From NCBI GenBank assembly GCA_021772985.1, contig JAJFKX010000058.1, positions 1-64,000 on the forward strand: a DNA stretch of 64,000 nucleotides, written 5' to 3'. Below, piece by piece: positions 16,063 to 29,750 of the stretch (the first letter of the stretch is position 1; every line of letters begins with the position of its first letter). The DNA is from Gammaproteobacteria bacterium. GTDB lineage: Bacteria; Pseudomonadota; Gammaproteobacteria; Xanthomonadales; Wenzhouxiangellaceae. The position numbers and the translations under genes are program-made. A model generated the notes under the pieces. The model was not told the DNA's origin and did not search any database. It saw only the letters and a list, made by a program, of their open reading frames with translations.

Positions 16063-17454
16063 ATGACAATCACTGTTCCCTCGAAGCAAGTAACTTTAAG
16101 GAAACCGCATAAACGAAATTCTATCGGATGGAGAATAACCTTGCAGATATCCAACTTCTATTCGCTGCTAAGTTCCGGCTCGGCGGATGGGCCTAGAGAG
16201 CCTGTAGCGGTGAATGGTCGCGAACTTCAGGAACTGATCAGCCCAACGCTGTCCGATGAATTTGCCAATCGCTATTTCTCGCGTTTGCCGTTCGGAATGC
16301 GTGGAGCTTCTGAAAAATTCAAACCTATTTTCGGTTGGGAAGCGTTGAATCAAGCGCTCGCTGCAGGCCGGAAAACTACGGATAAACGGTATGAAATAAA
16401 GGCGTGCTTTTCCCAAGGCGAAAAGTCCGGGAGCCCCCGGCGTATGTTTGTAGCGTATCACGGCCAACTAGCCGAGTTACTACAGGCTGGCGCAACGGTG
16501 TGTATCACTAACATCCATCTGGTTGATCCGTCCCTGGCTCGGTGGTCATCAGCGATTCGCGATCAATTGAATTTTACTGGTTACACGGGGGTTAACTGCT
16601 ATATATCGCCCGACGGTTCCGGGTTTGCCACTCACTACGATGCGAGGGTTGCCACGACTCTCCAGGTCGCCGGGAAAAAGCGATGGAGATATTCTACAGA
16701 GCCCGCAAAGGCTTGGCCCACACGTAATGTGATGTATCGCCAGGAAGAGCTCCAAGCGAACAAGGCGGACCTGGATGACATTGGAAAATTGCCCCCCGAT
16801 ATGGAATTTCATGAAGTGGAGTTGGGTCCCGGTGACCTTCTCTGTCTCCCCGCTGGCACTTGGCACTCTGCCTGCGCCGTTGGCCATTCGTTGGCTCTTA
16901 ACCTCTATTTCCAGCCTCGGAACTTTCTAAGCCAGTTGATTCCTGTGCTGCAGGGTTTGGCAGGCTCGAATAGCCACTGGATTTCCGGCCCGCCGGTGAC
17001 GGTGGAGAAGGCCCATGGGTCCATACCGAAGCAAGTCTCGGCTTATATGCAGGAACGCCTCGATGAGTTTCGCAATATGGCTTTGGAGACCATCGATGAT
17101 CGTTGCGCGGTGACCGAGTCTTGGTTGAATTCGTTACGCGGCGTGGGTGCAGGGCAATCTGCTGCACGATCATTAACGCCGCTGGTGTCGGCGGAGCAAC
17201 GTTTACGCGTTGCAACGTCATCGTTTCGTTTTATTCAATGTCGAGACAATGTCGTTGTAGCTTGTGAATCTGGCCTGCTCAAGTTTCCTGCGGCTGTGGC
17301 GCCGACCCTGCAGCTGCTGTTTTCCGAAGCACATAGTTTTACCGCAAATGATGTTCTTGGATGGCGGGTAAAATCCGATCAGCCTGCTGCAGGTGAAATC
17401 ATGTCTTGCTTGCAGGCCTTGATGGATAATGGAATTCTCGAGATAGCAGGGTAA
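16063..17454 (+). CDS. JmjC-type cupin (Fe(II)/2-oxoglutarate oxygenase-like) protein
   Basis: A 463-residue protein of the cupin_4/JmjC group, which includes the ribosomal oxygenases. The iron ligands are visible as H191-x-D193 (GFATHYDARVATTLQVAGKK) and H268 (LCLPAGTWHSA). TGVNCYISPDGSGF and KKRWRYSTEP are typical flanking segments. The C-terminal 150 residues resemble a winged-helix or dimerisation part. Two starts are possible: ATG at 16063, with no clear ribosome-binding site, or TTG at 16141 behind GGAGA. It may hydroxylate a protein or peptide. It lies 2 kb outside the RiPP genes on the other strand, so a role there is only a possibility. Confidence 0.8.
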   Translation: MTITVPSKQVTLRKPHKRNSIGWRITLQISNFYSLLSSGSADGPREPVAVNGRELQELISPTLSDEFANRYFSRLPFGMRGASEKFKPIFGWEALNQALAAGRKTTDKRYEIKACFSQGEKSGSPRRMFVAYHGQLAELLQAGATVCITNIHLVDPSLARWSSAIRDQLNFTGYTGVNCYISPDGSGFATHYDARVATTLQVAGKKRWRYSTEPAKAWPTRNVMYRQEELQANKADLDDIGKLPPDMEFHEVELGPGDLLCLPAGTWHSACAVGHSLALNLYFQPRNFLSQLIPVLQGLAGSNSHWISGPPVTVEKAHGSIPKQVSAYMQERLDEFRNMALETIDDRCAVTESWLNSLRGVGAGQSAARSLTPLVSAEQRLRVATSSFRFIQCRDNVVVACESGLLKFPAAVAPTLQLLFSEAHSFTANDVLGWRVKSDQPAAGEIMSCLQALMDNGILEIAG

Positions 17455-17977: not shown

Positions 17978-19426
17978 TTATGTTTTACTTTTGATGCTGG
18001 TCAGGTAGTCATCGGAGTAATCAATTTTCAACTCAATCCACATCGGTAAATGATCAGACATTTGAAATGTTCTCCAATCCTTGTACTTCCAGTTTGATGC
18101 TTTGCTTCTGCCCGCTTTGCGCCGGCGTTGCAACTCCTTGTTCATCAGCGGTATATAGTGTTTCTCATCTTGTCCGCCATCATCGCCGCAGTTTCGATAA
18201 ACATATTTGAAGAAATCAAATACGCCAGCCCGTACGGTTTCCACCTTGGTGATCTGCTGGTGATCGGAATCACCTGTATAAATGGCAATCTGATCGTAAT
18301 ATTCGTCACGCGATACATTGGTGCCCGCAGGGATTTTTCTGATCTGTTCGGGAATTTCGAAACCGTTGGATACCAATGCTTCGTAAGTCTTGTGGTTTTT
18401 ACCTTTGATATTGAAATCGCCAAGCGCAAAGAAAAAACTATCTGCTTCAGAATCTGACTCCGACTTGGCTTTTTTGGCCAGCATTTTGGTCAGTTGAGCA
18501 ATTTCTCGACGGCGACGTTCCAGACCATGTGCGCTGTTATCACCGTAGTAGATATGCACGGTGCACAACATTATTTTCAACCACCCGGCCTGAAAAGCAA
18601 CCAGGTAAGGTGTTCGGGCAAACTGCAACAATCCGGAGGCACGGGCACCATCAGGCAGCTCCAAAGCCCAATTTTTCGCCAGGCTAATTTCATTGACAGG
18701 TTTGTTCTGGAGTTGCCAGGTATCTGGTTGTTGATTGCATATCACTGGTGTTCCAGTTGGAATAAGCAGCTCACTGCCGGCTGGCAGCGTTACTTTGGTG
18801 CCCGGCGGTAACGGCAGGCGCAAAGCTTGCTTGAGTTGATATTGTCCACAGCGAACGCGCAACTTAGGGTTTTGCAGAGGCATACATGTGGCTTGCGGGA
18901 AAGTAATTGTATAGTCATTGCCAGTGGCTATCAGCTGTAAACCTTCCGGATGATAGATAACATGCGAATCACCCAGCGTTAACTCACCAGCAATACCCCG
19001 AAACCAACAAGTGTTTCGGTTATAGATGAATACCATGCGCTCGGAATTACCGGATACGTCAGTGGCAATGGCCTTCCAGGCACTGCCAAGCAAAGCTAAT
19101 AATTTATGCAAGCCACTCAGGTCACTGGTTACTTCTTGAATAGCAACCAGGTCAAATTCAGATATTATTTCGGCGATAAAATAATAGGCATCGTCCAGCC
19201 GTACACCATATTTATTCTCATCACCGAACTCTCTTAAATTCCAGGTTGCTAATCTCAGGACTTTACTGGAGTCAGGCAGTCTATTCATATGCTTGGGCAG
19301 TTTATTGAGGTGCTGCCTAAACCCTTTTCGCAGACGCAGTAACCCATCCGCAATCCACCTTTTATTAGCAGCCGCTTGTGCCGAGTCTCCAGGTAAAATC
19401 TTGAGTGCGGAATAATCAATACTCAT
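17978..19426 (-). CDS. endonuclease/exonuclease/phosphatase-family protein
   Basis: A 482-residue protein with an EEP (DNase I-like) fold split by a long insertion. N-terminal LRLATWNLREFGDE has the metal-binding asparagine (N63), and FDLVAIQEV the glutamate. FFFALGDFNIKGKNHKTYEA supplies the D-x-N pair, and MSDHLPMWIELKID the C-terminal D-H pair. Between them is a beta-rich insertion of about 150 residues (LPAGSELLIPTGTPVICNQQ). There is no signal peptide. It could act on nucleic acid or on a phosphoester; the substrate cannot be read. It lies just downstream of the lanthipeptide synthetase on the same strand (75-bp gap). A broken paralogue is at 29240-29750. Confidence 0.85.
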   Translation of the reverse strand: MSIDYSALKILPGDSAQAAANKRWIADGLLRLRKGFRQHLNKLPKHMNRLPDSSKVLRLATWNLREFGDENKYGVRLDDAYYFIAEIISEFDLVAIQEVTSDLSGLHKLLALLGSAWKAIATDVSGNSERMVFIYNRNTCWFRGIAGELTLGDSHVIYHPEGLQLIATGNDYTITFPQATCMPLQNPKLRVRCGQYQLKQALRLPLPPGTKVTLPAGSELLIPTGTPVICNQQPDTWQLQNKPVNEISLAKNWALELPDGARASGLLQFARTPYLVAFQAGWLKIMLCTVHIYYGDNSAHGLERRRREIAQLTKMLAKKAKSESDSEADSFFFALGDFNIKGKNHKTYEALVSNGFEIPEQIRKIPAGTNVSRDEYYDQIAIYTGDSDHQQITKVETVRAGVFDFFKYVYRNCGDDGGQDEKHYIPLMNKELQRRRKAGRSKASNWKYKDWRTFQMSDHLPMWIELKIDYSDDYLTSIKSKT

Positions 19427-19501: not shown

Positions 19502-22240
19502 CTATTCCGGGAGGCGAAGGGATTGCAGTCCTTCCAGATCGTGTAACAACCTGGTTTTGCCATGCATGAATCGATCCAGAAATACACCCGCACCGGCGCT
19601 GCCATAGCCGTAGTCATTGCTGATGCGTGACAAAGATCTGCCCGGCATTGCGATTCCATTGCCTTTTTGTATGCGATAGAGAAGAATGCTCTTTGCAATA
19701 TCACGTGCTTTTTTTGCGAACCCACTGTCACCGGTGACCTGATGCATATCCAGCATAAAATCACCGATACCACTTAAGCCCTCAAACTGTGCTGGCAAAA
19801 TAGTAAAACGAGAATAATTGGCACGAGCAACATCGTGGGCAAGTTTAAGATAGCGACCCTCCTGCAGCATCACAAAGAACCGAATGATGACAGCACCGAT
19901 GCCGCAACCGCCTTCTAACCAATAAGGTGACCATACGCCAGATTTACCGCTCAGCGACCAACGTGGCAAACCATCTGCATAATCAACACTGGCGGCCGAG
20001 ATGTCATACTCCAGGGCATTTCTGGCGGCGTTTAGAAACTGTGTTTGCTGAGTCAAATGGCTCAGATACAAAAGGAATAATGCAATGCCGCTGCCACCAT
20101 ATGCATAGCCAGGTTTCAGCATATCTCCTGTGGAATCTTGCCAACCTATGCCGTGAGCATTACTGACGCTATCGCCGGCAATGCGTTCGCCGATCTCAAT
20201 GGCTTTGTCGATATACCATTGATCGTTGGTCCATAAGTACATTTGCATGCATACCATGCCGCAACCTGCAGCACCATAGAAGATGCCCCGGTCTTTATAA
20301 AGCAGATCCGATTCAAGTGCCATTTTGAGTGTATCTTGCGCGCGCTGTTTATGACCTATCTGCCAGAACGTATAGGCAATGCCCGCCAGACCCAGGTATA
20401 ACCCTGGTGGATAACGCTCTAGCGAAAGTGGTTGTTTACACATCCACCGATCAACTGTTTCGGGAATTTCTGCAGCAACCGTCTGTAAGTACAATGCCGG
20501 ACCGCATGCCCCATAAGCAATGCTCATTGGATTGGTGCCAAAAATCTTATAATCAGATGGCCACAGGCAATCAGAACGTTTGCTATTACTTGTTGCTATT
20601 ATGTATTGAGTAATACCAGCAGTCGTTTGTTTGACCTGTTCGCTCAAGCTGATGTCATCATAGATAAATGCTGATACCGTATTAACTGGTTGTTGATAAA
20701 CAACCGGTTGGTGATCGTGCCCTTCAAGTTCTAATAATTTCAGCGCAGCTATCGGTTTACCCAGTGTCAATAATCTAATGGCTTGCGGCACCCATCCAGG
20801 TAATTGCGCCGCCTCAGTCATAATTGCCATGAACTGTTCGTAAATACCGGGCGATAGCGTATTAAGGCGATTAACAGGCAATAACATGCTGAATAACACC
20901 ATTCCAGCCGCATACCAATCGTCACTGTAAGTAACACTTAGCTTGGTGCTTTTACCCCGTGATCGATAACCGGGGGTCATCCAGACACTGGATAGTTCAT
21001 CAGGGTCCGCGGACCAACGATGATCCCATGCGCTTTCTAAATCCACCAGATAAATATTGCGCTGCTCATCAATCAAGATGTTATAGGGAGAGATATCACC
21101 AATAACAATGTTCCGTCGATGAACAGCCAGTATGGCTTTTATCAGATTAATTCCAACTGCCTGGAAGGCTTCGCAAAAACGTTTGATCTTTTCTCGATTC
21201 GCATCAAAAGGTGCCAGTAAAACATTGTCCTGTGCCCTGAACCGTGAGAATGAAAACCCATCAATAAACTGCTGTACAGCGAAAGTGTGTCCACCTTCAT
21301 TAAATACTTCTATGCCTCGTGCTACACAATTTAACTCAGATAATTTATTTAATATTTTATGTTCTCGCCTGATAGAATCTTCCGCATAAAACCGCCACTT
21401 GGGAACGTGCGAGATTGTTGTATGTGGTCGTGCTTCCTTGATCAAAACCTCATCACCACTGGTCAAATCTGTAGCCAGATAAGTCCCCCCGCAATTAGAA
21501 AAGGTAATGGCCTCCTTGATCCGGTACTTTCCGTTTAATACCACCGAACCAGCTTGGGCCAGGCTATCATCACCAGCAAAAGGATCCGCGACATCATCTG
21601 GCAGTCTAAAATACGGAACGCGCTGATCCGGTATCAACTTACCACTTGAGTCAACAATACATAGAACGCTCCCACCCTTGACTGTCAGTTGTTTTTTAGG
21701 CACAAAACCACCGTACCGGTAAAACAGCACTTTGTTATCATTAATTGGTTTGTCAGAGAGAATATATGGACCGGAAAAATCTCGCGTTTCAGCATCCAGT
21801 TTTTTAGCCAGATCCAGGAACTGATCGATACAAGCAGGGTAAATCGTAATAAGCTTATGTGCTGATTCGCGCGGGAAAAACTTGCAGTTAGCGATAGCCA
21901 GCATACTCTCTGACTGCAATACCTTAAAGATAACCTTTCCTTCAATACAAACAGGTATCGCCGCTTTCAGAATGCTCCTGGCATTATCCTGTGTTGCACT
22001 GATATGCAGCTTGAAACCGTTGTCAGGAAGTTTTTTGCCTGATGGTGCCACATGGTACCAGAGACCACTGCGTTTAAGCATCCAGTCACTGGGCACCATA
22101 GAGCGCAATACTTTTCTATAATCTCCTGACAAAGGCATCCGTTCCAGGGTTTCAAAATAGGTATTACTGGCTAGTGTATATAAAAAAGCATTTTGTGAGC
22201 CCGAATGCTCAGGGTAAACTTTACTGGTAGAAATATCCAT
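19502..22240 (-). CDS. lanKC: class III lanthipeptide synthetase (LanKC)
   Basis: A 912-residue trifunctional synthetase that phosphorylates Ser/Thr, eliminates phosphate and cyclises onto Cys. Residues about 70-185 are the lyase domain (FKLHISATQDNARSIL, HKLITIYP, GPYILSDKP, FYRYGGFV). Residues about 238-510 are a Ser/Thr kinase: K268 (LIKEA), catalytic loop GDISPYN at 381-387, and DLE at 400-402 in place of DFG, as usual in this family. From about 560 to the end is a LanC-like cyclase with G-x-x-G blades. The class I/II/IV zinc ligands are missing (YWLEGGCGIG and QFEGLSGIG stand where W-C-x-G and C-H-G would be). This assigns class III. AGGTGG precedes the start. It is the last of the RiPP genes and follows four precursor genes. 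Confidence 0.95.
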   Translation of the reverse strand: MDISTSKVYPEHSGSQNAFLYTLASNTYFETLERMPLSGDYRKVLRSMVPSDWMLKRSGLWYHVAPSGKKLPDNGFKLHISATQDNARSILKAAIPVCIEGKVIFKVLQSESMLAIANCKFFPRESAHKLITIYPACIDQFLDLAKKLDAETRDFSGPYILSDKPINDNKVLFYRYGGFVPKKQLTVKGGSVLCIVDSSGKLIPDQRVPYFRLPDDVADPFAGDDSLAQAGSVVLNGKYRIKEAITFSNCGGTYLATDLTSGDEVLIKEARPHTTISHVPKWRFYAEDSIRREHKILNKLSELNCVARGIEVFNEGGHTFAVQQFIDGFSFSRFRAQDNVLLAPFDANREKIKRFCEAFQAVGINLIKAILAVHRRNIVIGDISPYNILIDEQRNIYLVDLESAWDHRWSADPDELSSVWMTPGYRSRGKSTKLSVTYSDDWYAAGMVLFSMLLPVNRLNTLSPGIYEQFMAIMTEAAQLPGWVPQAIRLLTLGKPIAALKLLELEGHDHQPVVYQQPVNTVSAFIYDDISLSEQVKQTTAGITQYIIATSNSKRSDCLWPSDYKIFGTNPMSIAYGACGPALYLQTVAAEIPETVDRWMCKQPLSLERYPPGLYLGLAGIAYTFWQIGHKQRAQDTLKMALESDLLYKDRGIFYGAAGCGMVCMQMYLWTNDQWYIDKAIEIGERIAGDSVSNAHGIGWQDSTGDMLKPGYAYGGSGIALFLLYLSHLTQQTQFLNAARNALEYDISAASVDYADGLPRWSLSGKSGVWSPYWLEGGCGIGAVIIRFFVMLQEGRYLKLAHDVARANYSRFTILPAQFEGLSGIGDFMLDMHQVTGDSGFAKKARDIAKSILLYRIQKGNGIAMPGRSLSRISNDYGYGSAGAGVFLDRFMHGKTRLLHDLEGLQSLRLPE

Positions 22241-22373
22241 AATTAAACCACCTGCTGCTACGGTTACAATTAACTTGTCATAGGCAAAATCACGACCGCT
22301 GGATAAAATATGGGGCTGACAACATACGCTGCCCGCCCCAACGGTTAGCTTTGTAAATAAAAAGCTTAATCAA

Positions 22374-22496
22374 TTAGTTGTTATTTTCGAACTGATCATC
22401 ACCGTCACAACCCAAGCTTGCAGCACTGCCTGTCATTTCTGCGTAGTTATCGGTATCGGTGGTTCTAATTTCCTGTAAAGAAAGTACATTTTTCAT
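22374..22496 (-). CDS. lanA1: class III lanthipeptide precursor 1
   Basis: A 40-residue precursor peptide. The leader carries V4-L-S-L-Q-E-I10, matching the class III leader motif (I/L-x-x-L-Q) that docks on LanKC. The core region, M21-T-G-S-A-A-S-L-G-C-D31, has S24-x-x-S27-x-x-C30, the exact spacing that yields a labionin or a lanthionine plus dehydroalanine. The tail is acidic and Asn-rich (GDDQFENNN). GGAG lies 8 nt before the ATG. It is the copy closest to lanKC, with a 133-bp gap and no obvious terminator, so read-through into lanKC is likely. Confidence 0.93.
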   Translation of the reverse strand: MKNVLSLQEIRTTDTDNYAEMTGSAASLGCDGDDQFENNN

Positions 22497-22549
22497 TGTT
22501 ATCTCCTGGTAATTAATACAAATATGAATGAATTAGCTATCTTTATAAA

Positions 22550-22570
22550 AGACGCACTGTAATTATTGCC
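22550..22570 (-). promoter_or_regulatory. conserved block upstream of precursor 1
   Basis: On the plus strand it reads ACGCACTGTAATTATTGCC. It shares GCA-N5-ATTATTG with the regions upstream of precursors 2 and 3, 66-74 bp before each start codon. A second shared piece, CTTTATAAAAGA (22541-22552), lies between the block and the gene. The block may be a promoter element or operator. Confidence 0.5.
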
Positions 22571-22690
22571 TTTATCATCAGCCTTTTAAAGCCGAAAAAA
22601 CAATAATTAATTCCACTGTTTTATATATATTTGCATTATTAGAGGGTGCGAATATACAAGTTTTTCCCTTTGGAAGATCAGACCGTTCAT

Positions 22691-22723
22691 AAAAAAGCAG
22701 GCGATATGTTATCGCCTGCTTTT
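22691..22723 (-). terminator. intrinsic terminator after precursor 2
   Basis: On the minus strand a perfect 13-bp stem (AAAAGCAGGCGAT with ATCGCCTGCTTTT, 5-nt loop) is followed by six T residues. It lies about 40 bp past the stop codon of precursor 2, so that gene can be a transcription unit of its own. Confidence 0.85.
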
Positions 22724-22761
22724 ACCTGCCTGGCGGCAAGTGGTGCCACTATCTCATGGCT

Positions 22762-22878
22762 TTAGGCATCCTGCTGTTGCTCGCCATCACAACCCAAGCT
22801 GGCAGCACTACCTGTCATTTCAGCGTGATCATTAACATCATTGGTTTTGATTTCTTGCAAAGAAAGTACATTTTTCAT
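22762..22878 (-). CDS. lanA2: class III lanthipeptide precursor 2
   Basis: A 38-residue precursor. The leader is M-K-N-V-L-S-L-Q-E-I-K, and the core M21-T-G-S24-A-A-S27-L-G-C30-D31 is identical to precursor 1. The tail differs (GEQQQDA). GGAGATACTA precedes the ATG at 22876-22878. The gene has its own conserved upstream block and its own strong terminator, which gives a repeated promoter-gene-terminator module. Confidence 0.93.
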   Translation of the reverse strand: MKNVLSLQEIKTNDVNDHAEMTGSAASLGCDGEQQQDA

Positions 22879-22929
22879 TAGTATCTCCTAATAAGTGATA
22901 TGAATATGGATTAATTATGCACCTTTATA

Positions 22930-22955
22930 AAAGATGCAGAACCATTATTGCTTTT
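22930..22955 (-). promoter_or_regulatory. conserved block upstream of precursor 2
   Basis: On the plus strand it contains GATGCAGAACCATTATTGC followed by TTTTAC. It shares GCA-N5-ATTATTG-N2-TTTA with precursors 1 and 3. CTTTATAAAAGATGCA, just nearer the gene, is also shared with precursor 1. The spacing to the start codon (66 bp) is the same as for precursor 1. Confidence 0.55.
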
Positions 22956-23055
22956 ACTGGAAGGTATTAAAACAATGAAAGGCAGTAACTTATTTTGCTT
23001 TTTTATTATTAATTATGAGGCATTTAAATTTCGCTTAAAACTTGCTCTACCGCAC

Positions 23056-23085
23056 AAAAACAGACGGCAATATGCCGCCTGTTTT
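23056..23085 (-). terminator. intrinsic terminator after precursor 3
   Basis: On the minus strand AAAACAGGCGGCA pairs with TGCCGTCTGTTTT (one G-T pair, 3-nt loop) and runs into five T residues. It begins about 50 bp after the stop codon of precursor 3. Confidence 0.8.
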
Positions 23086-23135
23086 ACTTGCCAGATAGCA
23101 AGTGATACTTCTACCTTGCGGTATTAAGTATTCGA

Positions 23136-23240
23136 TTAGTCTACGTCATCACAGCCCAGACTGGCAGCACTGCCGGTCATTTCCGCGTGATCATTGACTT
23201 CACTGGTATTGATTTCTTGTAAAAAAAGTACATTTTTCAT
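23136..23240 (-). CDS. lanA3: class III lanthipeptide precursor 3
   Basis: A 34-residue precursor. The leader is M-K-N-V-L-F-L-Q-E-I, where S6 of the other copies is F6. The core M21-T-G-S24-A-A-S27-L-G-C30-D31 is unchanged, and the tail is short and acidic (DDVD, counting D31). GGAGATAGTA precedes the ATG at 23238-23240. It is one of four tandem copies and is flanked by its own upstream block and terminator. Confidence 0.92.
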   Translation of the reverse strand: MKNVLFLQEINTSEVNDHAEMTGSAASLGCDDVD

Positions 23241-23300
23241 TACTATCTCCTAATGATAAGTTAGCGTAACTGGTTTGTTACAAAAACGCTTTTAAATATA

Positions 23301-23326
23301 AAAACGCAAATCCATTATTGTTTTAC
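23301..23326 (-). promoter_or_regulatory. conserved block upstream of precursor 3
   Basis: On the plus strand it contains ACGCAAATCCATTATTG followed by TTTTACC. It matches the blocks of precursors 1 and 2, with the same GCA-N5-ATTATTG core, about 74 bp before the start codon. The equivalent region of precursor 4 keeps only a weak resemblance. Confidence 0.5.
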
Positions 23327-23493
23327 CAGGGGCATATTAAAAGCGCAAAAAGTTGATATTTTCTGCATATTTTAAATATTCATGCCTGTAAAAAAATAAA
23401 CATTCCCCGAGTTTCCAGGTCGGGACAACATGATATTGATCAAAATAGGGCCTTTCGCTGGCCTCAAGATCAGCTTAAATAGTCCAATACAAT

Positions 23494-23527
23494 TAAAAGT
23501 GGGGCAGCAGACTAACACCGCCGCCCC
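23494..23527 (-). terminator. probable terminator after precursor 4
   Basis: On the minus strand GGGGCGGC pairs with GCTGCCCC (one G-T pair) around an 11-nt loop and is followed by ACTTTTAATT. It begins about 60 bp after the stop codon of precursor 4. Confidence 0.55.
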
Positions 23528-23589
23528 GAACTCTAGCTTGCTTTTAAAGAAAGCAGGCAATGCAAGATTGCATTATGCGTCTTGTTGTA

Positions 23590-23694
23590 TCAGTTTTCAC
23601 CGTCACAGCCCAGGCTGGCAATGCTACCTGTCATTTTCGCATGGTTGTAGGTGCTATTGGTTTCAATCAATTGTAGTGTTAGTACATCTTTCAT
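23590..23694 (-). CDS. lanA4: class III lanthipeptide precursor 4 (divergent)
   Basis: A 34-residue precursor, the most divergent of the four. The leader is M-K-D-V-L-T-L-Q-L-I-E, which keeps V-L-x-L-Q. The core is K-M-T-G-S24-I-A-S27-L-G-C30-D31, with A25 replaced by I, so the ring-forming S-x-x-S-x-x-C and the flanking T22 and D31 are all kept. The tail is GEN. GGAGATAATC precedes the ATG at 23692-23694. It is the copy nearest to the ATP-grasp ligase gene. Confidence 0.92.
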   Translation of the reverse strand: MKDVLTLQLIETNSTYNHAKMTGSIASLGCDGEN

Positions 23695-23994
23695 GATTAT
23701 CTCCTGTTAAGAAATTAAACGGCTGACTTGCCGTAATAGACATTCCTCTCATTAAGAATGCATCATCAGAATTGACAATTACCTGATCATTAAAAAGCAC
23801 TAAAAATGCTCTTTTACTACTGATATTAAGAAAAATTAATGAATATATTAAAGCAACGCAGCTTAGCCTGAAGAGCGCTAATTTTAACGGGCATTAGCGA
23901 TATCATTTTGCCTGGTCGCGACCAGCTGTCAGGCAAATTTTATAACTTTGTCCGGGCAGCGCCGTGGCCATAAACCACAGTGCTGTCACGCCCG
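23695..23994. other. intergenic region between ATP-grasp ligase and precursor 4, with a palindrome
   Basis: This 300-bp gap holds a palindrome at 23906-23939: TTTGCCTG and CAGGCAAA enclose CTGGTCGCGACCAG. It lies about 60 bp past the ligase stop codon and has no T-tract after it, so it may be a weak terminator or a REP-like site. The promoter of precursor 4 should also lie here. No further precursor gene was found. Confidence 0.5.
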
Positions 23995-25113
23995 TTATTC
24001 CATGAAAACACCACCGATCCGCTCTTCAGGATCAGTGGAAGCATTGACGCGCGCCTGCCATTCACTGAAAGCTTCTGATTCCAGATAATCATGGTAAGCA
24101 ACACCGGTAATCGCATCCAGTGAATAATCCGTACGGCCTGTTTTAAGCATGGCACACATTGACCGGAGCAACGGTAAGGATCCAACCATGTCTTCCACAA
24201 ACGAAAATGCGCCTGCTTGATTGACTTCCAGAAAATACATATCGCCAGCCGTATCCACCAATAAGTCGATACAGCCATATACAATCCCCAGCTTGTTCAT
24301 CAGCCGACTGATTTTATCTTCAATTGCAGCCGGCAATGGATAGACGCGCGCATCAATTGATTGAGTTAAAGCGTCCTGGCGCCAATCAACACAGGCACCC
24401 TGCGCCAATGGCTTCAATCGTATGGTGAACAGCCGTTCACCGATAACCGTTACCCGCAAGTCGTATTGCTTCTTGATCACCGGTTGATAAGTTCCCGGGC
24501 TTAATTTGATGACCCGGTCGTCCAGCACGCTGCTGGTATCCAGAGTGTCTACCCATTGAGCATATAACTCTCCGCTAACCGAATCTTTCCAGGTGTAACG
24601 CCCAAAACCTTTATAGATCACACGTCCGTGCCGTTGAATGAAACGCCGAACATCTCCAGGGTGGTTCGATACCAAGGTTTCCGGAAAAGCCAGGCCACAT
24701 TTCCGCGCCACCTGAAGCTGTAAAAGTTTGTTTTCCGCTTGCGCCGCCGCAACTGGTTGATTAACCCACAATGTATCACCAAAGTCGGGGCATACCGCAT
24801 ATAGGTTGTCATACAACCGCGACCACTCTGCGCGCAGGTGTGGCTCATCACAAGCCCTTGCGTTAGGGAAGTGCTTGGGCTTGCGCGGGCGATGCAACCA
24901 CACCGAACTGATTTTCTCCGGGTTGAACGCTCCCTGCAGGCGCCACGGCAGATCCTGATTGCTATGCAGTGAAACCGGCCCATCGGGCTGTTCACTGAAT
25001 GTTGTCCAGCATGGTTCAATGCCATTTTTCCGCAGTCCCCAACAAACCGCAGCGGCTTGTACATCCCATTGTGTGGACAGAATCAGCGGACGTTTTTGCA
25101 TGCTTGCACCCAT
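23995..25113 (-). CDS. MvdC/MvdD-type ATP-grasp peptide ligase (graspetide synthetase-like)
   Basis: A 372-residue member of the ATP-grasp group that forms ester or amide side-chain bonds in graspetides (microviridin MdnB/MdnC type). N-terminal LILSTQWDVQAAAVCWGLRK and SVWLHRPRKPKHFP, then WVNQPVAAAQAENKLLQLQV (K129), FPETLVSN and VIYKGF (K168) give the typical pre-ATP-grasp and ATP-binding parts. YDLRVTVIGERLFTIR and YGCIDLLVDTAGDMYFLEVN supply the Mg-binding D283, E296 and N298. The start is ATG at 25113, or at 25101 (MQKRPL). Either start overlaps the end of the small gene upstream. It is on the same strand as the four lanthipeptide precursors and lanKC, so it probably modifies the same peptides or the upstream small protein. 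Confidence 0.88.
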   Translation of the reverse strand: MGASMQKRPLILSTQWDVQAAAVCWGLRKNGIEPCWTTFSEQPDGPVSLHSNQDLPWRLQGAFNPEKISSVWLHRPRKPKHFPNARACDEPHLRAEWSRLYDNLYAVCPDFGDTLWVNQPVAAAQAENKLLQLQVARKCGLAFPETLVSNHPGDVRRFIQRHGRVIYKGFGRYTWKDSVSGELYAQWVDTLDTSSVLDDRVIKLSPGTYQPVIKKQYDLRVTVIGERLFTIRLKPLAQGACVDWRQDALTQSIDARVYPLPAAIEDKISRLMNKLGIVYGCIDLLVDTAGDMYFLEVNQAGAFSFVEDMVGSLPLLRSMCAMLKTGRTDYSLDAITGVAYHDYLESEAFSEWQARVNASTDPEERIGGVFME

Positions 25114-25340
25114 TCCCGAAGCTGTTCTTTGTTAGGTGTACCTGTATCATCCTTAAACATCCCGGAAGCTTTCTGCAAACCCTGGTAGGTTTCTTGTTTT
25201 AGGTGATCGTGTTTCCGCGACCCGATCCGCTTTGGCTGCAACGCATCACTGGGCAACTTGCGAGCCAGCTGACGCGCCAGTGGGCGTAACCCGTCAATAT
25301 CATTTGCATTTTTTTGCTTCGATTTTTTCTTTACTATCAT
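25083..25340 (-). CDS. small basic protein overlapping the ATP-grasp ligase gene
   Basis: An 85-residue protein I do not recognise. AGGAG lies 6 nt before the ATG. Its 3' end overlaps the ligase start by 19-31 bp, so the two are translationally coupled. The N-terminus is strongly basic (MIVKKKSKQK), followed by LRPLARQLARKLPSDALQPK, and the C-terminal third mixes acidic residues with Thr/Lys (FKDDTGTPNKEQLREW). It could be the substrate of the ligase, since it has both nucleophile and acid side chains near its end, or a partner protein. No established graspetide core repeat is visible, so its role is open. Confidence 0.7.
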   Translation of the reverse strand: MIVKKKSKQKNANDIDGLRPLARQLARKLPSDALQPKRIGSRKHDHLKQETYQGLQKASGMFKDDTGTPNKEQLREWVQACKNVR

Positions 25341-26306: not shown

Positions 26307-26900
26307 GTGCTGATTGACGATATGTTATCTTTTTCTAATAGCCAGTTTTGGCAATACGACATGGCCTGCGCCAAAAAAGCGCAGGCTTTTAGACTGATCA
26401 AGCTTGGCGCACGCGCCGGATTGGTGGTGCAACTAACAGGGTTACCCAAGTCACCTGTTAAAGCACTGTATCGAAAAGTTCATGGTAAACCCTCGCCACC
26501 TGGCTTGAGCCCTTTTACAGATAATTGGTATTTACAAAGTGAACAGCGTCAGTTGCATGCCAATATCATCTGGAAAATTGATAGTGAACTAAAATCACAA
26601 CTAGAAGAACGGGCACAACGATTAATCAATGTTTATCAATGCTATTTATGTAGCGTTATCGATCCGCTGCTGGATATTCAGCGTGCTTATTTTGTGCCGC
26701 AGCTTTTGCAGGCCCAATTATGGCAGCAGCAAATTTGCAAACAATGCAAAATTGATTATATCTGCTCAGTTACTCACGTGGCTCTGCTATGCCCCGCATG
26801 TAGAATCCAGCAAATTCATAGGTGCCGTCAGTGTAATGCCCCACTAAGTCAATCAACACTTGGGCGCAGAACACTCCTATGCGATAGTTGCCATCCTTGA
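26307..26900 (+). CDS. FlhC-like transcriptional regulator
   Basis: A 197-residue FlhC homologue. FRLIKLGARAGLVVQLTG matches FlhC's L-I-x-L-G-A-R-x-x-x-x-x-x-x-T. VKALYRKVHGKPSPPGLSPF followed by TDNWYL matches its L-Y-K-E-L-x-G-x-x-P-P-K-G-x-x-P-F-S-x-D-W-F. FlhC binds zinc through four cysteines. This protein has four C-x2-C pairs (C144/C147, C162/C165, C173/C176, C192/C195), so it has an extra zinc-ribbon-like unit at the C-terminus. The start may be GTG at 26307 or ATG at 26322; neither has a clear ribosome-binding site. It forms an operon with the FlhD-like gene. A stem GCACCA-TTTG-TGGTGC at 26910-26925 follows the gene. Confidence 0.85.
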   Translation: MLIDDMLSFSNSQFWQYDMACAKKAQAFRLIKLGARAGLVVQLTGLPKSPVKALYRKVHGKPSPPGLSPFTDNWYLQSEQRQLHANIIWKIDSELKSQLEERAQRLINVYQCYLCSVIDPLLDIQRAYFVPQLLQAQLWQQQICKQCKIDYICSVTHVALLCPACRIQQIHRCRQCNAPLSQSTLGRRTLLCDSCHP

Positions 26901-27608: not shown

Positions 27609-28226
27609 TTACTCTGTATTATCTGGTATTCGCTGAATGACCTTGCCTTGTTCATCCAATATTTCAATCGCCGCCTTGCCATCCACATTAACACCGAGAC
27701 GGATACGCTCACGTCCTTCATCATCATGGATAATCAAGCCGGCATCCGCATTCTGTGTGCCCAGAAAAATTCGCTTAACGCCCTGGCTGCTGGTCACCGG
27801 GCCAGGCACATAAGGCCGGCGATCATAGACCGTTAATCCACCTTTCCATGTTTCCCCATCTTCAGATTCGAAAGTGCCTAAATTGACAGCATCGGTAATC
27901 TGATGAGTAAAGTCGAAAGTGATCATGCGGGCCTTGGTGGTATTGTCAGGAGGATAACGGGTGGTCACAATGCCTCCGCTTTCATTACCATCCTCATCAT
28001 GCCAGATAATGCCTGCAGGCGAGATTGAGCGCTCGTACTGCTGTCCTCGTACAATTGGACCTGGAGATTCCCCCGCGATGATGAAACGGAGTTTACCGGA
28101 TTCATCAACAACATTAATGCGTTTAACCGTTATCTCATCCGCAGGTACAACACTTGCGCACCCTGCGATCAGCAGCATGCCCACACTTAGAATACCGAAA
28201 CTTACGCACAGCTTGTTACTTCTCAT
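27609..28226 (-). CDS. lipoprotein, hypothetical
   Basis: A 205-residue lipoprotein. The signal sequence ends in a lipobox (MLLIAGCASVVP), so C23 would be lipidated. The mature part has repeated beta segments of similar form: RINVVDESGKLRFIIAGESP, IIWHDEDGNESGGIVTT, GLIIHDDEGRERIRLGVN and AIEILDEQGKVIQRIPD. These resemble the short D-x-x-G-K/R-x-R-I repeats of beta-solenoid surface proteins. No enzyme function is evident. It lies with two other unknown minus-strand genes at 26.9-28.9 kb, with gaps of 84-145 bp. Confidence 0.7.
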   Translation of the reverse strand: MRSNKLCVSFGILSVGMLLIAGCASVVPADEITVKRINVVDESGKLRFIIAGESPGPIVRGQQYERSISPAGIIWHDEDGNESGGIVTTRYPPDNTTKARMITFDFTHQITDAVNLGTFESEDGETWKGGLTVYDRRPYVPGPVTSSQGVKRIFLGTQNADAGLIIHDDEGRERIRLGVNVDGKAAIEILDEQGKVIQRIPDNTE

Positions 28227-28370: not shown

Positions 28371-28949
28371 TTAATGACCATTGGATTCGAGCGTACGTAC
28401 CATTTCGAAATCGATATACCGGTTCATTCGCACCTCGGTTCCATCCTTCATCATTATCCTGCAGATACACAGGAATGGTCCTGCCGCAGATGTGGTGATA
28501 CCCATTAAAACGTTGTTTGGCTCTTCCCGGTAAACCTTGTTACCCCAATGCGAGCCTAGGAAAAACTCTGCATACTCGACATCATCGAAAGCCTCGGACT
28601 TATGCCGTACTAAGTAGATAAAGATGTCATAATCGTGACCTGGCGTCGCTGGTGATTCAACAATGTGTGCCAAAAATAACCCGTAATTATGACGATAAAC
28701 CCCATTACGCTCCTTGGTCCAGTCATCTTCCTGGACCGCCTCAACCGGATCTGTCGGGGCGACCTTTTCCAAGCTCTCAAAGGCAACCGAACCCAACTCA
28801 ACCGGGCCGGCTTTAAACGAACTACCGGCGGCCACTCGTTCCTGTATGGCATCAAATAACGCTTGTAATTGTGGTGTAAAGCGATAAATCAGATAAAGAA
28901 TCAGCCCAACCCAGACCACTGACTCGAATAATGGAACCCATGCGTTCAT
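28371..28949 (-). CDS. membrane-anchored pYEATS-domain protein
   Basis: A 192-residue protein. An N-terminal membrane segment (residues about 8-23, FESVVWVGLILYLIYRF) leads to a short coiled linker and a C-terminal domain resembling the prokaryotic YEATS (pYEATS) domain: DIFIYLVRHKSEAFDDVEYA, EFFLGSHWGNKVYRE, GITTSAAGPFLCICRIM and FKDGTEVRMNRYIDFEM-like segments. Comparative-genomic work ties such domains to membrane-linked signalling or conflict systems. The domain call rests on the E-F-F-L-G-x-x-W-G-N and G-P-F-L-C pattern. No effector gene adjoins it. Confidence 0.7.
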   Translation of the reverse strand: MNAWVPLFESVVWVGLILYLIYRFTPQLQALFDAIQERVAAGSSFKAGPVELGSVAFESLEKVAPTDPVEAVQEDDWTKERNGVYRHNYGLFLAHIVESPATPGHDYDIFIYLVRHKSEAFDDVEYAEFFLGSHWGNKVYREEPNNVLMGITTSAAGPFLCICRIMMKDGTEVRMNRYIDFEMVRTLESNGH

Positions 28950-29239
28950 CCAGTTCCTACCGCTGTTTATCTGAAGTGATCAAAACTGATAGTCTGCAGG
29001 CTTTGATCCCATTGTGTTTTTCAAAAACTGTGAAATACATCGAATTAACTCTATTAAATGATTGGTTGTTTAGACACAATACGAATTTAGAGAGTTCTCG
29101 CGAAAAGTTACATGTTTTTCTCCATTTTTTACAGCCATTAACGAATTAACCAATCTATAAACTATCAAGTCGAGCAGCACAACCTTAGAATCAATCAATA
29201 ACCGCGCTAGTCTATTGCAGAAATTAGTTCTCTATCCAC
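28950..29239. other. intergenic region, nothing recognised
   Basis: The stretch between the pYEATS gene and the EEP remnant holds AT-rich sequence with no convincing open frame, hairpin or repeat. Confidence 0.4.
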
Positions 29240-29750
29240 TCTGGTCTTTGATACTTGCCAGGCAATCATCGGAGTGATCAATTTTCAGTTCAATCCACAT
29301 TGGCATTTGTCCGGGTTTTTCAAAACTATTTGAAACCATTGCTTCGCAGGTAATGTGGTCTTTATCTTTGATATTAAAATCACCCAGCGCAAAGAAAAAC
29401 TGTCTGGTTCGGTATCAGATTCAGCTCATCTTGCCAACACATAAGGCAACTTGCGATTTCGCATTGGCGGCGATTGAGGCCGTCTTTGCTGAGATCACGA
29501 TAATAAATATCCGCTATACACAACACCACTTTCAACCAATCCGCCTGAAATGCGACACATGCAGGGTGTGCGGGAAAATTGCAGCAGTCCGGAGGCACGC
29601 GCGCCATCGGGCAAGCTCACAGTCGCACCTGCAGGTATTGGCAGGAAAAGTTTTTTTTAAAATCGCCGCCGGTTGATATAATCTGCAAATCTCTGGGGCG
29701 TACAGTACATCCGAATCCCCCAGCGTCACTGATTCAGTCCATGACGAAAT
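29240..29750 (-). pseudogene. degenerate copy of the EEP-family gene
   Basis: Fragments of the protein at 17978-19426 can be read in changing frames: a tail MPMWIELKIDHSDD and ASIKDQ (compare LPMWIELKIDYSDD), the active-site segment FFALGDFNIKDKDHITCEAM, a middle part ADWLKVVLCIADIYYRD (compare AGWLKIMLCTVHIYYGD) and VTLGDSDVLYAPE. About 200 bp between the tail and the GDFN segment are missing, as is the N-terminal third, and frameshifts separate the pieces. It is on the same strand as the intact copy 10 kb away, so the two flank the RiPP/FlhDC block as direct repeats. Confidence 0.85.

Follow-up and report, generated by a model that had tools for sequence, protein, structure and literature searches.

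The 64,000-nucleotide stretch analysed in this work (positions 1 to 64,000 of contig JAJFKX010000058.1, assembly GCA_021772985.1; referred to as the window) comes from a gammaproteobacterium of the order Xanthomonadales, family Wenzhouxiangellaceae, and probably hosts a cluster of the class III lanthipeptide type together with a graspetide-type module, with a FlhDC-like gene pair as the likely regulator. The locus may be read as two adjacent modules for ribosomally synthesised and post-translationally modified peptides (RiPPs) under one regulator. Gene content, the family of the synthetase LanKC, residue conservation, selection on the precursors and the conservation of the whole block across two genomes are read directly from the sequence. 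An earlier note on this DNA had described four tandem minus-strand precursor genes, with a VLxLQ leader and a TGSxASLGCD core, ahead of LanKC. Both coordinates and motifs have been confirmed; the ATP-grasp ligase, the leader-bearing small open reading frame (ORF) and the FlhDC-like pair had been overlooked.

Synthetase and precursors

The score against the family model, the order of the domains, the catalytic residues, the leader, the core and the fold all support the assignment of the locus to the class III lanthipeptide type, already made in that note. LanKC exceeds the threshold of the class III equivalog model NF038151 (660.1 bits, cut-off 575) but not that of the class IV model NF038150 (456.3 bits, cut-off 650). 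A RamC-type lyase, a Ser/Thr-kinase-like and a LanC-like cyclase domain follow each other in this order (Pfam RamC_N, Pkinase, LANC_like), and the best PDB matches of an AlphaFold model (predicted local distance difference test, pLDDT, 87.6) are all class III synthetases, namely ThurKC, SalKC, CuvL and PneKC. Residue correspondences with ThurKC and NisC have been mapped by hand from the alignment, ThurKC residues being taken from PMC10604976. All eight lyase residues that matter in ThurKC (K65, H67, K94, K108, K117, D152, R163 and R191) are kept in LanKC, in the same order as K77, H79, K106, K120, K129, D163, R175 and R207. Kept are also the kinase residues K268/E269, D382, N387 and D400-L-E402 (the DxE motif), and Y254, E269 and R124, the counterparts of the residues that contact the leader glutamine in ThurKC. 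The LanC zinc ligands are lost, as previously claimed: NisC Cys284, Cys330 and His331 are replaced by L775, F819 and E820, at positions held in ThurKC by S726, F770 and D771.

The leader V4-L5-x-L7-Q8 is constant in the four window precursors (VLSLQ, VLSLQ, VLFLQ and VLTLQ), and contains the [IL]xxLQ / LxLQ motif of class III leaders. The core T22-G23-S24-x-A26-S27-L28-G29-C30-D31 is constant as well, with S24, S27 and C30 at identical positions in all four, as the note had stated. The S-x2-S-x(2-5)-C motif is thus present as S24-x2-S27-x2-C30, and SxxSxxC occurs in all seven precursor genes of the genus. The invariance of the core stands within the window, not in the congener (metagenome-assembled genome, MAG, OFTM396), the only other genome of the genus compared: T22 is there replaced by Ala and L28 can be Ile, and the wider genus core reads [TA]GSxAS[LI]GCD[GD]. 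Asp31 is kept in 7/7 precursors, and more acidic residues are found in the tails.

The array is not a chance occurrence, because these four are the only ORFs shorter than 100 amino acids in the window in which [LI]xLQ is followed by SxxSxxC, and a degenerate DNA pattern for GSxASxGCD matches four times in the 4.8-Mb genome and three times in that of the congener, always at the lanthipeptide locus. A reversed-pattern control gave zero matches in both genomes. The precursors are under purifying selection. In the 11-codon core of the seven genes, differences summed over pairs are 96 at 148 synonymous sites and 48 at 545 non-synonymous sites, a ratio (pN/pS) of 0.136; the same calculation gives 0.31 for the leader. 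A GGAG-type ribosome site precedes every start codon, and all seven genes share an element lying some 60-95 nt upstream of the start codon. A profile built from the four window elements ranks the three sites of the congener 1, 2 and 4 among 45,430 positions. The element is regarded as a candidate only, because its dyad is clear in some copies only and the reverse test is weaker, a profile from the congener sites alone not placing the window sites first. Hairpins follow the precursors at the 3' side; the one after precursor 1, which has a weak T-run, might let transcription read through into LanKC. From ribosome sites, selection, the common upstream element and 3' hairpins, the precursors look like functional genes, each with its own regulation. 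A scan of the 10-32 kb interval with Rfam found no RNA family, and matches to sigma-70 promoters are at chance level (15 found, 12.5 expected).

Ring formation

LanKC would bind each of the four precursors by the VLxLQ helix, phosphorylate Ser24 and Ser27, and eliminate the phosphates to yield dehydroalanine (Dha). The metal-free cyclase domain would then add Cys30 to form, across SxxSxxC, either labionin or lanthionine, one Dha persisting in the latter case. Labionin is a plausible outcome. A single S-x2-S-x(2-5)-C motif leads to labionin in paenithopeptins and bacinapeptins (PMC8960859), and the pair F819/E820 matches the Phe/Asp pair that ThurKC requires for cyclisation. That LanKC stops at simple lanthionine, leaving one Dha and making no labionin, is a less probable outcome, yet one to be taken seriously: for class III SxxSx(2-5)C motifs, both labionin and a single lanthionine have been reported as outcomes (PMC11251773, PMC7268733), and ThurKC R610 and D667, tied to ring formation, appear in the hand mapping to align with other residues in LanKC. 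The latter argument is weakened in that labionin makers, too, are reported to lack conservation of R610 and D667 (PMC10604976).

The ATP-grasp ligase and the RPLAR peptide

The ATP-grasp ligase matches AMdnB, ATP grasp ligases and CdnC in the PDB at 1e-20 to 1e-26, and scores 179.9 bits against TIGR04187 (GRASP_SAV_5884), below the cut-off of 350. The enzyme is of the MvdC/D type and has its ATP and metal residues intact; K129, K168, R220, D243, R245, D283, E296 and N298 are unchanged in 22 homologues. An AlphaFold model, made from two sequences, had a pLDDT of 36 and has not been used. The ligase is 53% identical in the congener, where it lies again directly ahead of the precursors and of a LanKC 56% identical to that of the window.

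Relatives of the ligase (E 1e-20 or better) have been identified in 58 of 398 genomes of the order. Most of the 20 loci inspected encode enzymes 38-46% identical to the window ligase, and in the loci showing one, the gene immediately preceding the ATP-grasp gene encodes a short peptide whose leader is of the RPLAR, RPFAR or RPFG type and whose core is, for instance, TTHATGPNGDDPGDP or SGxxxNDxPDP. In graspimiditide precursors, RPFG is known to serve recognition (PMC13003496); graspetides, Lysobacter ones included, have also been described with leaders of the form Phhx(1,2)h (PMC8939145). A profile of 14 graspetide-type precursors of other genera was searched against 2571 six-frame ORFs. Its top two matches are the small ORFs ahead of the ATP-grasp gene in the congener (E 1.9e-6) and in the window (E 1.1e-3), the next match being at E 2.7; the ligase has therefore its own leader peptide. 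A possible core, ASGMFKDDTG, resembles in the window ORF the SGxxxND / TGxxxDD cores, the second domain scoring only -2.2 bits. Ligase and RPLAR peptide would form a second RiPP module, in which the ligase most likely modifies the RPLAR peptide and not the lanthipeptide precursors.

Direct tailoring of the LanA peptides by the ATP-grasp ligase was the first idea, and has been demoted: members of this subfamily often have their own precursor with an RPLAR/RPFG leader, and so it is here. A hybrid pathway, in which the RPLAR leader peptide activates the ligase in trans and the ligase modifies also the lanthipeptide precursors at the acids following Cys30, is unlikely. Ligase, LanA and LanKC genes stay together in a fixed order in two genomes whose versions of these proteins share only 53-57% identity, Asp31 and the acidic tails would offer targets, graspetide leaders function from unusual positions (PMC13003496), and the RPLAR peptide of the congener is a leader with no evident core. 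Yet, LanA leaders lack an RP[LF]-type motif, the three congener cores have no common Ser/Thr/Lys nucleophile besides the SxxS pair, and an acid after the Cys is found also in Paucisalibacillus precursors, with no ATP-grasp of this kind nearby. A split-leader version of the lanthipeptide-graspetide hybrid would make the RPLAR ORF a stand-alone trans activator, have the ligase modify the acidic tails after LanKC treatment, and place all of this under an FlhDC pair recruited from flagella; it is rated marginally lower still. In the order members endowed with both enzymes (G431, G438 and G499), LanKC and ligase are far apart or on different contigs.

In six other loci (L129-L134), graspetide-type precursors with leader RPLAR..AREL..GG and core THATGPNGDDPxDP lie upstream of the ATP-grasp gene; conserved larger ORFs further upstream resemble, by eye, a secretion adaptor and an ABC transporter.

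The FlhDC-like pair and flanking genes

FlhC occurs as one copy per genome of the genus, both times at the lanthipeptide locus, and is missing in 41 other genomes of the family. FlhA (PF00771), part of the flagellar export gate, was not found in either genome of the genus. From the distribution of FlhC and the lack of FlhA, the FlhDC-like pair tracks the cluster, not flagella. It is the likely transcriptional regulator of the cluster, and would act possibly via the conserved element ahead of each precursor; its retention beside the cluster, in a genus where no flagellar export gate was detected, probably reflects a flagellar-type switch put to a new use. The features of the locus are listed in Table 1.

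Table 1. Features of the lanthipeptide locus and adjacent genes (window positions).
Feature	Position	Strand	Remarks
LanKC, class III lanthionine synthetase, 912 aa	19502..22240	-	NF038151 and Pfam domains
Hairpin after precursor 1	22312..22339	-	weak T-run
Precursor 1, MKNVLSLQEIRTTDTDNYAEMTGSAASLGCDGDDQFENNN, 40 aa	22374..22496	-	NF038159 lanthi_III_b 24.0 bits (below cut-off 30)
Conserved upstream element, precursor 1	22537..22569	-	about 60-95 nt ahead of ATG
Terminator-like hairpin after precursor 2	22694..22723	-	T-run
Precursor 2, MKNVLSLQEIKTNDVNDHAEMTGSAASLGCDGEQQQDA, 38 aa	22762..22878	-	NF038159 23.9 bits (below cut-off 30)
Conserved upstream element, precursor 2	22919..22951	-	holds dyad GCATCTT-N5-AAGGTGC
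Terminator-like hairpin after precursor 3	23060..23083	-	T-run
Precursor 3, MKNVLFLQEINTSEVNDHAEMTGSAASLGCDDVD, 34 aa	23136..23240	-	NF038159 19.5 bits (below cut-off 30)
Conserved upstream element, precursor 3	23289..23321	-	profile and dyad check
Terminator-like hairpin after precursor 4	23501..23527	-	
Precursor 4, MKDVLTLQLIETNSTYNHAKMTGSIASLGCDGEN, 34 aa	23590..23694	-	NF038159 16.1 bits (below cut-off 30)
Conserved upstream element, precursor 4	23743..23775	-	weakest copy
Graspetide-type ATP-grasp peptide ligase, 372 aa	23995..25113	-	TIGR04187, PDB matches
Small ORF, 85 aa, leader RPLARQLARKLP	25083..25340	-	overlaps ATP-grasp start; AGGAG just before ATG
FlhD-like protein, 98 aa	26005..26301	+	PF05247 22.2 bits; divergent from ATP-grasp operon
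FlhC-like protein, 197 aa, proposed cluster regulator	26307..26900	+	PF05280 64.2 bits, cut-off 27
Conserved gene, 195 aa	26937..27524	-	59% identity in congener, beside FlhC there too

Several points weigh against the combined proposal. Product and expression are predicted from the sequence, as are the chemistry of the ring, the substrate of the ligase and the regulation of the cluster. Co-conservation of the block concerns two genomes of one genus, one of which is a MAG. No precursor reaches the cut-off of 30 of NF038159, scores being 16.1-24.0 bits in the window and at most 27.2 in the congener. The FlhD-like protein stays below the cut-off of 27 of PF05247, and control by the FlhDC-like pair is deduced from position and distribution. 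The substrate of the ligase is uncertain, because the RPLAR peptide of the congener has no recognisable graspetide core. Finally, no obvious exporter or leader protease is encoded in the locus; both may be encoded outside it.

The conserved gene following FlhC encodes a product with one likely membrane helix. A putative lipoprotein with no family match (27609-28226) has a relative near the cluster in the congener, and another a few bases downstream of LanKC in a member of the order (G505, L031:7826-8608). Beyond the FlhC side lies a protein with a pYEATS (prokaryotic YEATS) domain (28371-28949; 41 bits, cut-off 26.9). On the other side, the 14-19 kb interval hosts genes for an M17 peptidase, a JmjC/cupin oxygenase-like protein (16063-17454) and, just downstream of LanKC, a nuclease of the endonuclease/exonuclease/phosphatase type (17978-19426), all excluded from the locus because none of them was seen close to the cluster in the congener. 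A same-strand copy of the nuclease-like gene, degraded by stops and frameshifts, is found at 29238-29620. The region has been rearranged, because the degraded copy lies across the block, and the two sequences are possibly the footprint of a duplication or insertion around the cluster. This copy on the far side, and a graspetide-like peptide that seems to have lost its core in the congener, would fit a decaying or silent cluster. Such a fate is very improbable, as opposed to it are enzymes that are all full length with intact catalytic residues, and precursors showing the selection and the flanking signals described above.

Distribution among bacteria

LanKC scores above the cut-off in one of 369 sampled genomes of the class (this genome), 11 of 151 of the order and both genomes of the genus, and a protein search of the family found it in 2 of 43 genomes. 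A scan of 84,980 species genomes yielded 69 LanKC loci; since the scan patterns were built from three related proteins, these loci are a sample of relatives, not the whole set of LanKCs. They include loci of Pseudoalteromonas, Shewanella, Ferrimonas, Idiomarina, Rheinheimera, Sorangium, Corallococcus and Bacteroidota, and several of the gammaproteobacterial ones carry tandem SxxSxxC precursors. In the tree, the LanKCs of the window and of the congener group with that of Lysobacter silvestris, and then with a clade of Pseudoalteromonas, Shewanella and Ferrimonas. The notion that these systems belong mainly to actinobacteria is out of date, given the products of Firmicutes (PMC8960859, PMC10604976), a Myxococcus fulvus peptide (PMC9576775) and many Gram-negative LanKC loci. 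Rarity in Gram-negatives was likewise overstated: from the distribution of LanKC and the M. fulvus product, class III systems are uncommon there, not new, and related loci exist in Pseudoalteromonas, Shewanella, Ferrimonas, Idiomarina, Lysobacter and myxobacteria.

The congener has FlhDC, the leader ORF, the ligase, three precursors and LanKC, and no relative of the window ATP-grasp was found in the other 68 LanKC loci (flanks of up to 10 kb, shorter on some contigs). Searches of the literature (open-access papers) found no description of a LanKC and ATP-grasp hybrid, nor of FlhDC linked to a RiPP cluster. Each kind of component is already known; what is new is a class III cluster paired with a graspetide-type module and a FlhDC-like pair.

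A nearly identical (W)ST[IVA]SNHC core lies within or at the end of precursors from distant bacteria, Pseudoalteromonas/Shewanella (L041, L042, L043, L069) and Paenibacillus (L066, L073, L080), and the corresponding synthetases fall in separate parts of the tree; either transfer or convergence on one product may account for it. Two LanKC loci from members of the order (L009 and L012, family f3) have LxLQ precursors without SxxSxxC, with forms such as TNYSTCSHSACS instead, and thus combine class III enzymes with non-labionin-like cores. The genome under study also encodes a class II synthetase, LanM (L033:8508-11720, G000:C11; TIGR03897 868 bits, cut-off 304), and has hence at least two lanthipeptide systems.

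Related systems and significance

The system of ThurKC and andalusicin in Bacillus thuringiensis (PMC10604976) shares with the window the domain order of LanKC, lyase and kinase residues, the pocket for the leader Gln, a zinc-free cyclase and an array of near-identical precursors (seven there, four here). The two synthetases are about 23% identical in the structural alignment, and andalusicin has a long core, 11 dehydrations and an N-methyltransferase in place of the ATP-grasp, whereas the window core is very short, with two Ser and one Cys. Paenithopeptins and bacinapeptins of Firmicutes (PMC8960859) have one S-x2-S-x(2-5)-C motif per core, and their leader protease can sit outside the cluster, as may be the case here; they differ in leader, core and phylum, and no graspetide-type module has been reported. 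Shewanella SR44-3, Ferrimonas kyonanensis and Pseudoalteromonas rubra have a LanKC in the same part of the tree and tandem LxLQ precursors with SxxSxxC, but the cores end in WSTISNHC or WSTFSVNC, not GSxASLGCDG, and their flanks (up to 10 kb) host no relative of the ATP-grasp. The M. fulvus peptide, made heterologously, is also a Gram-negative class III lanthipeptide, but has seven dehydrations, three rings and a precursor of another family.

For the second module, the closest systems are the Lysobacter graspetides (Gra-8 of L. capsici, PMC9576775; the Lysobacter/Xanthomonas ATP-grasp branch, PMC8939145), in which a MvdC/D-type ligase lies beside a small leader peptide. The type of leader, Phhx(1,2)h or RPFG/RPLAR, is common to these, to graspimiditides (PMC13003496) and to the window. 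In contrast to them, the window peptide has no clearly recognisable core, which is missing in the congener, and no GG site, and its ligase sits inside a class III lanthipeptide cluster.

In Proteobacteria, the characterisation of class III lanthipeptides has barely begun. What decides between labionin and lanthionine has been posed as an open question in the ThurKC paper (PMC10604976), and the very small and uniform substrates of this locus, with two Ser and one Cys, are suited to it. The locus pairs two types of RiPP enzymes in a combination not found in the literature searched, and provides a candidate example of a peptide cluster controlled by an FlhDC-like regulator in bacteria where no flagellar export gate was detected.

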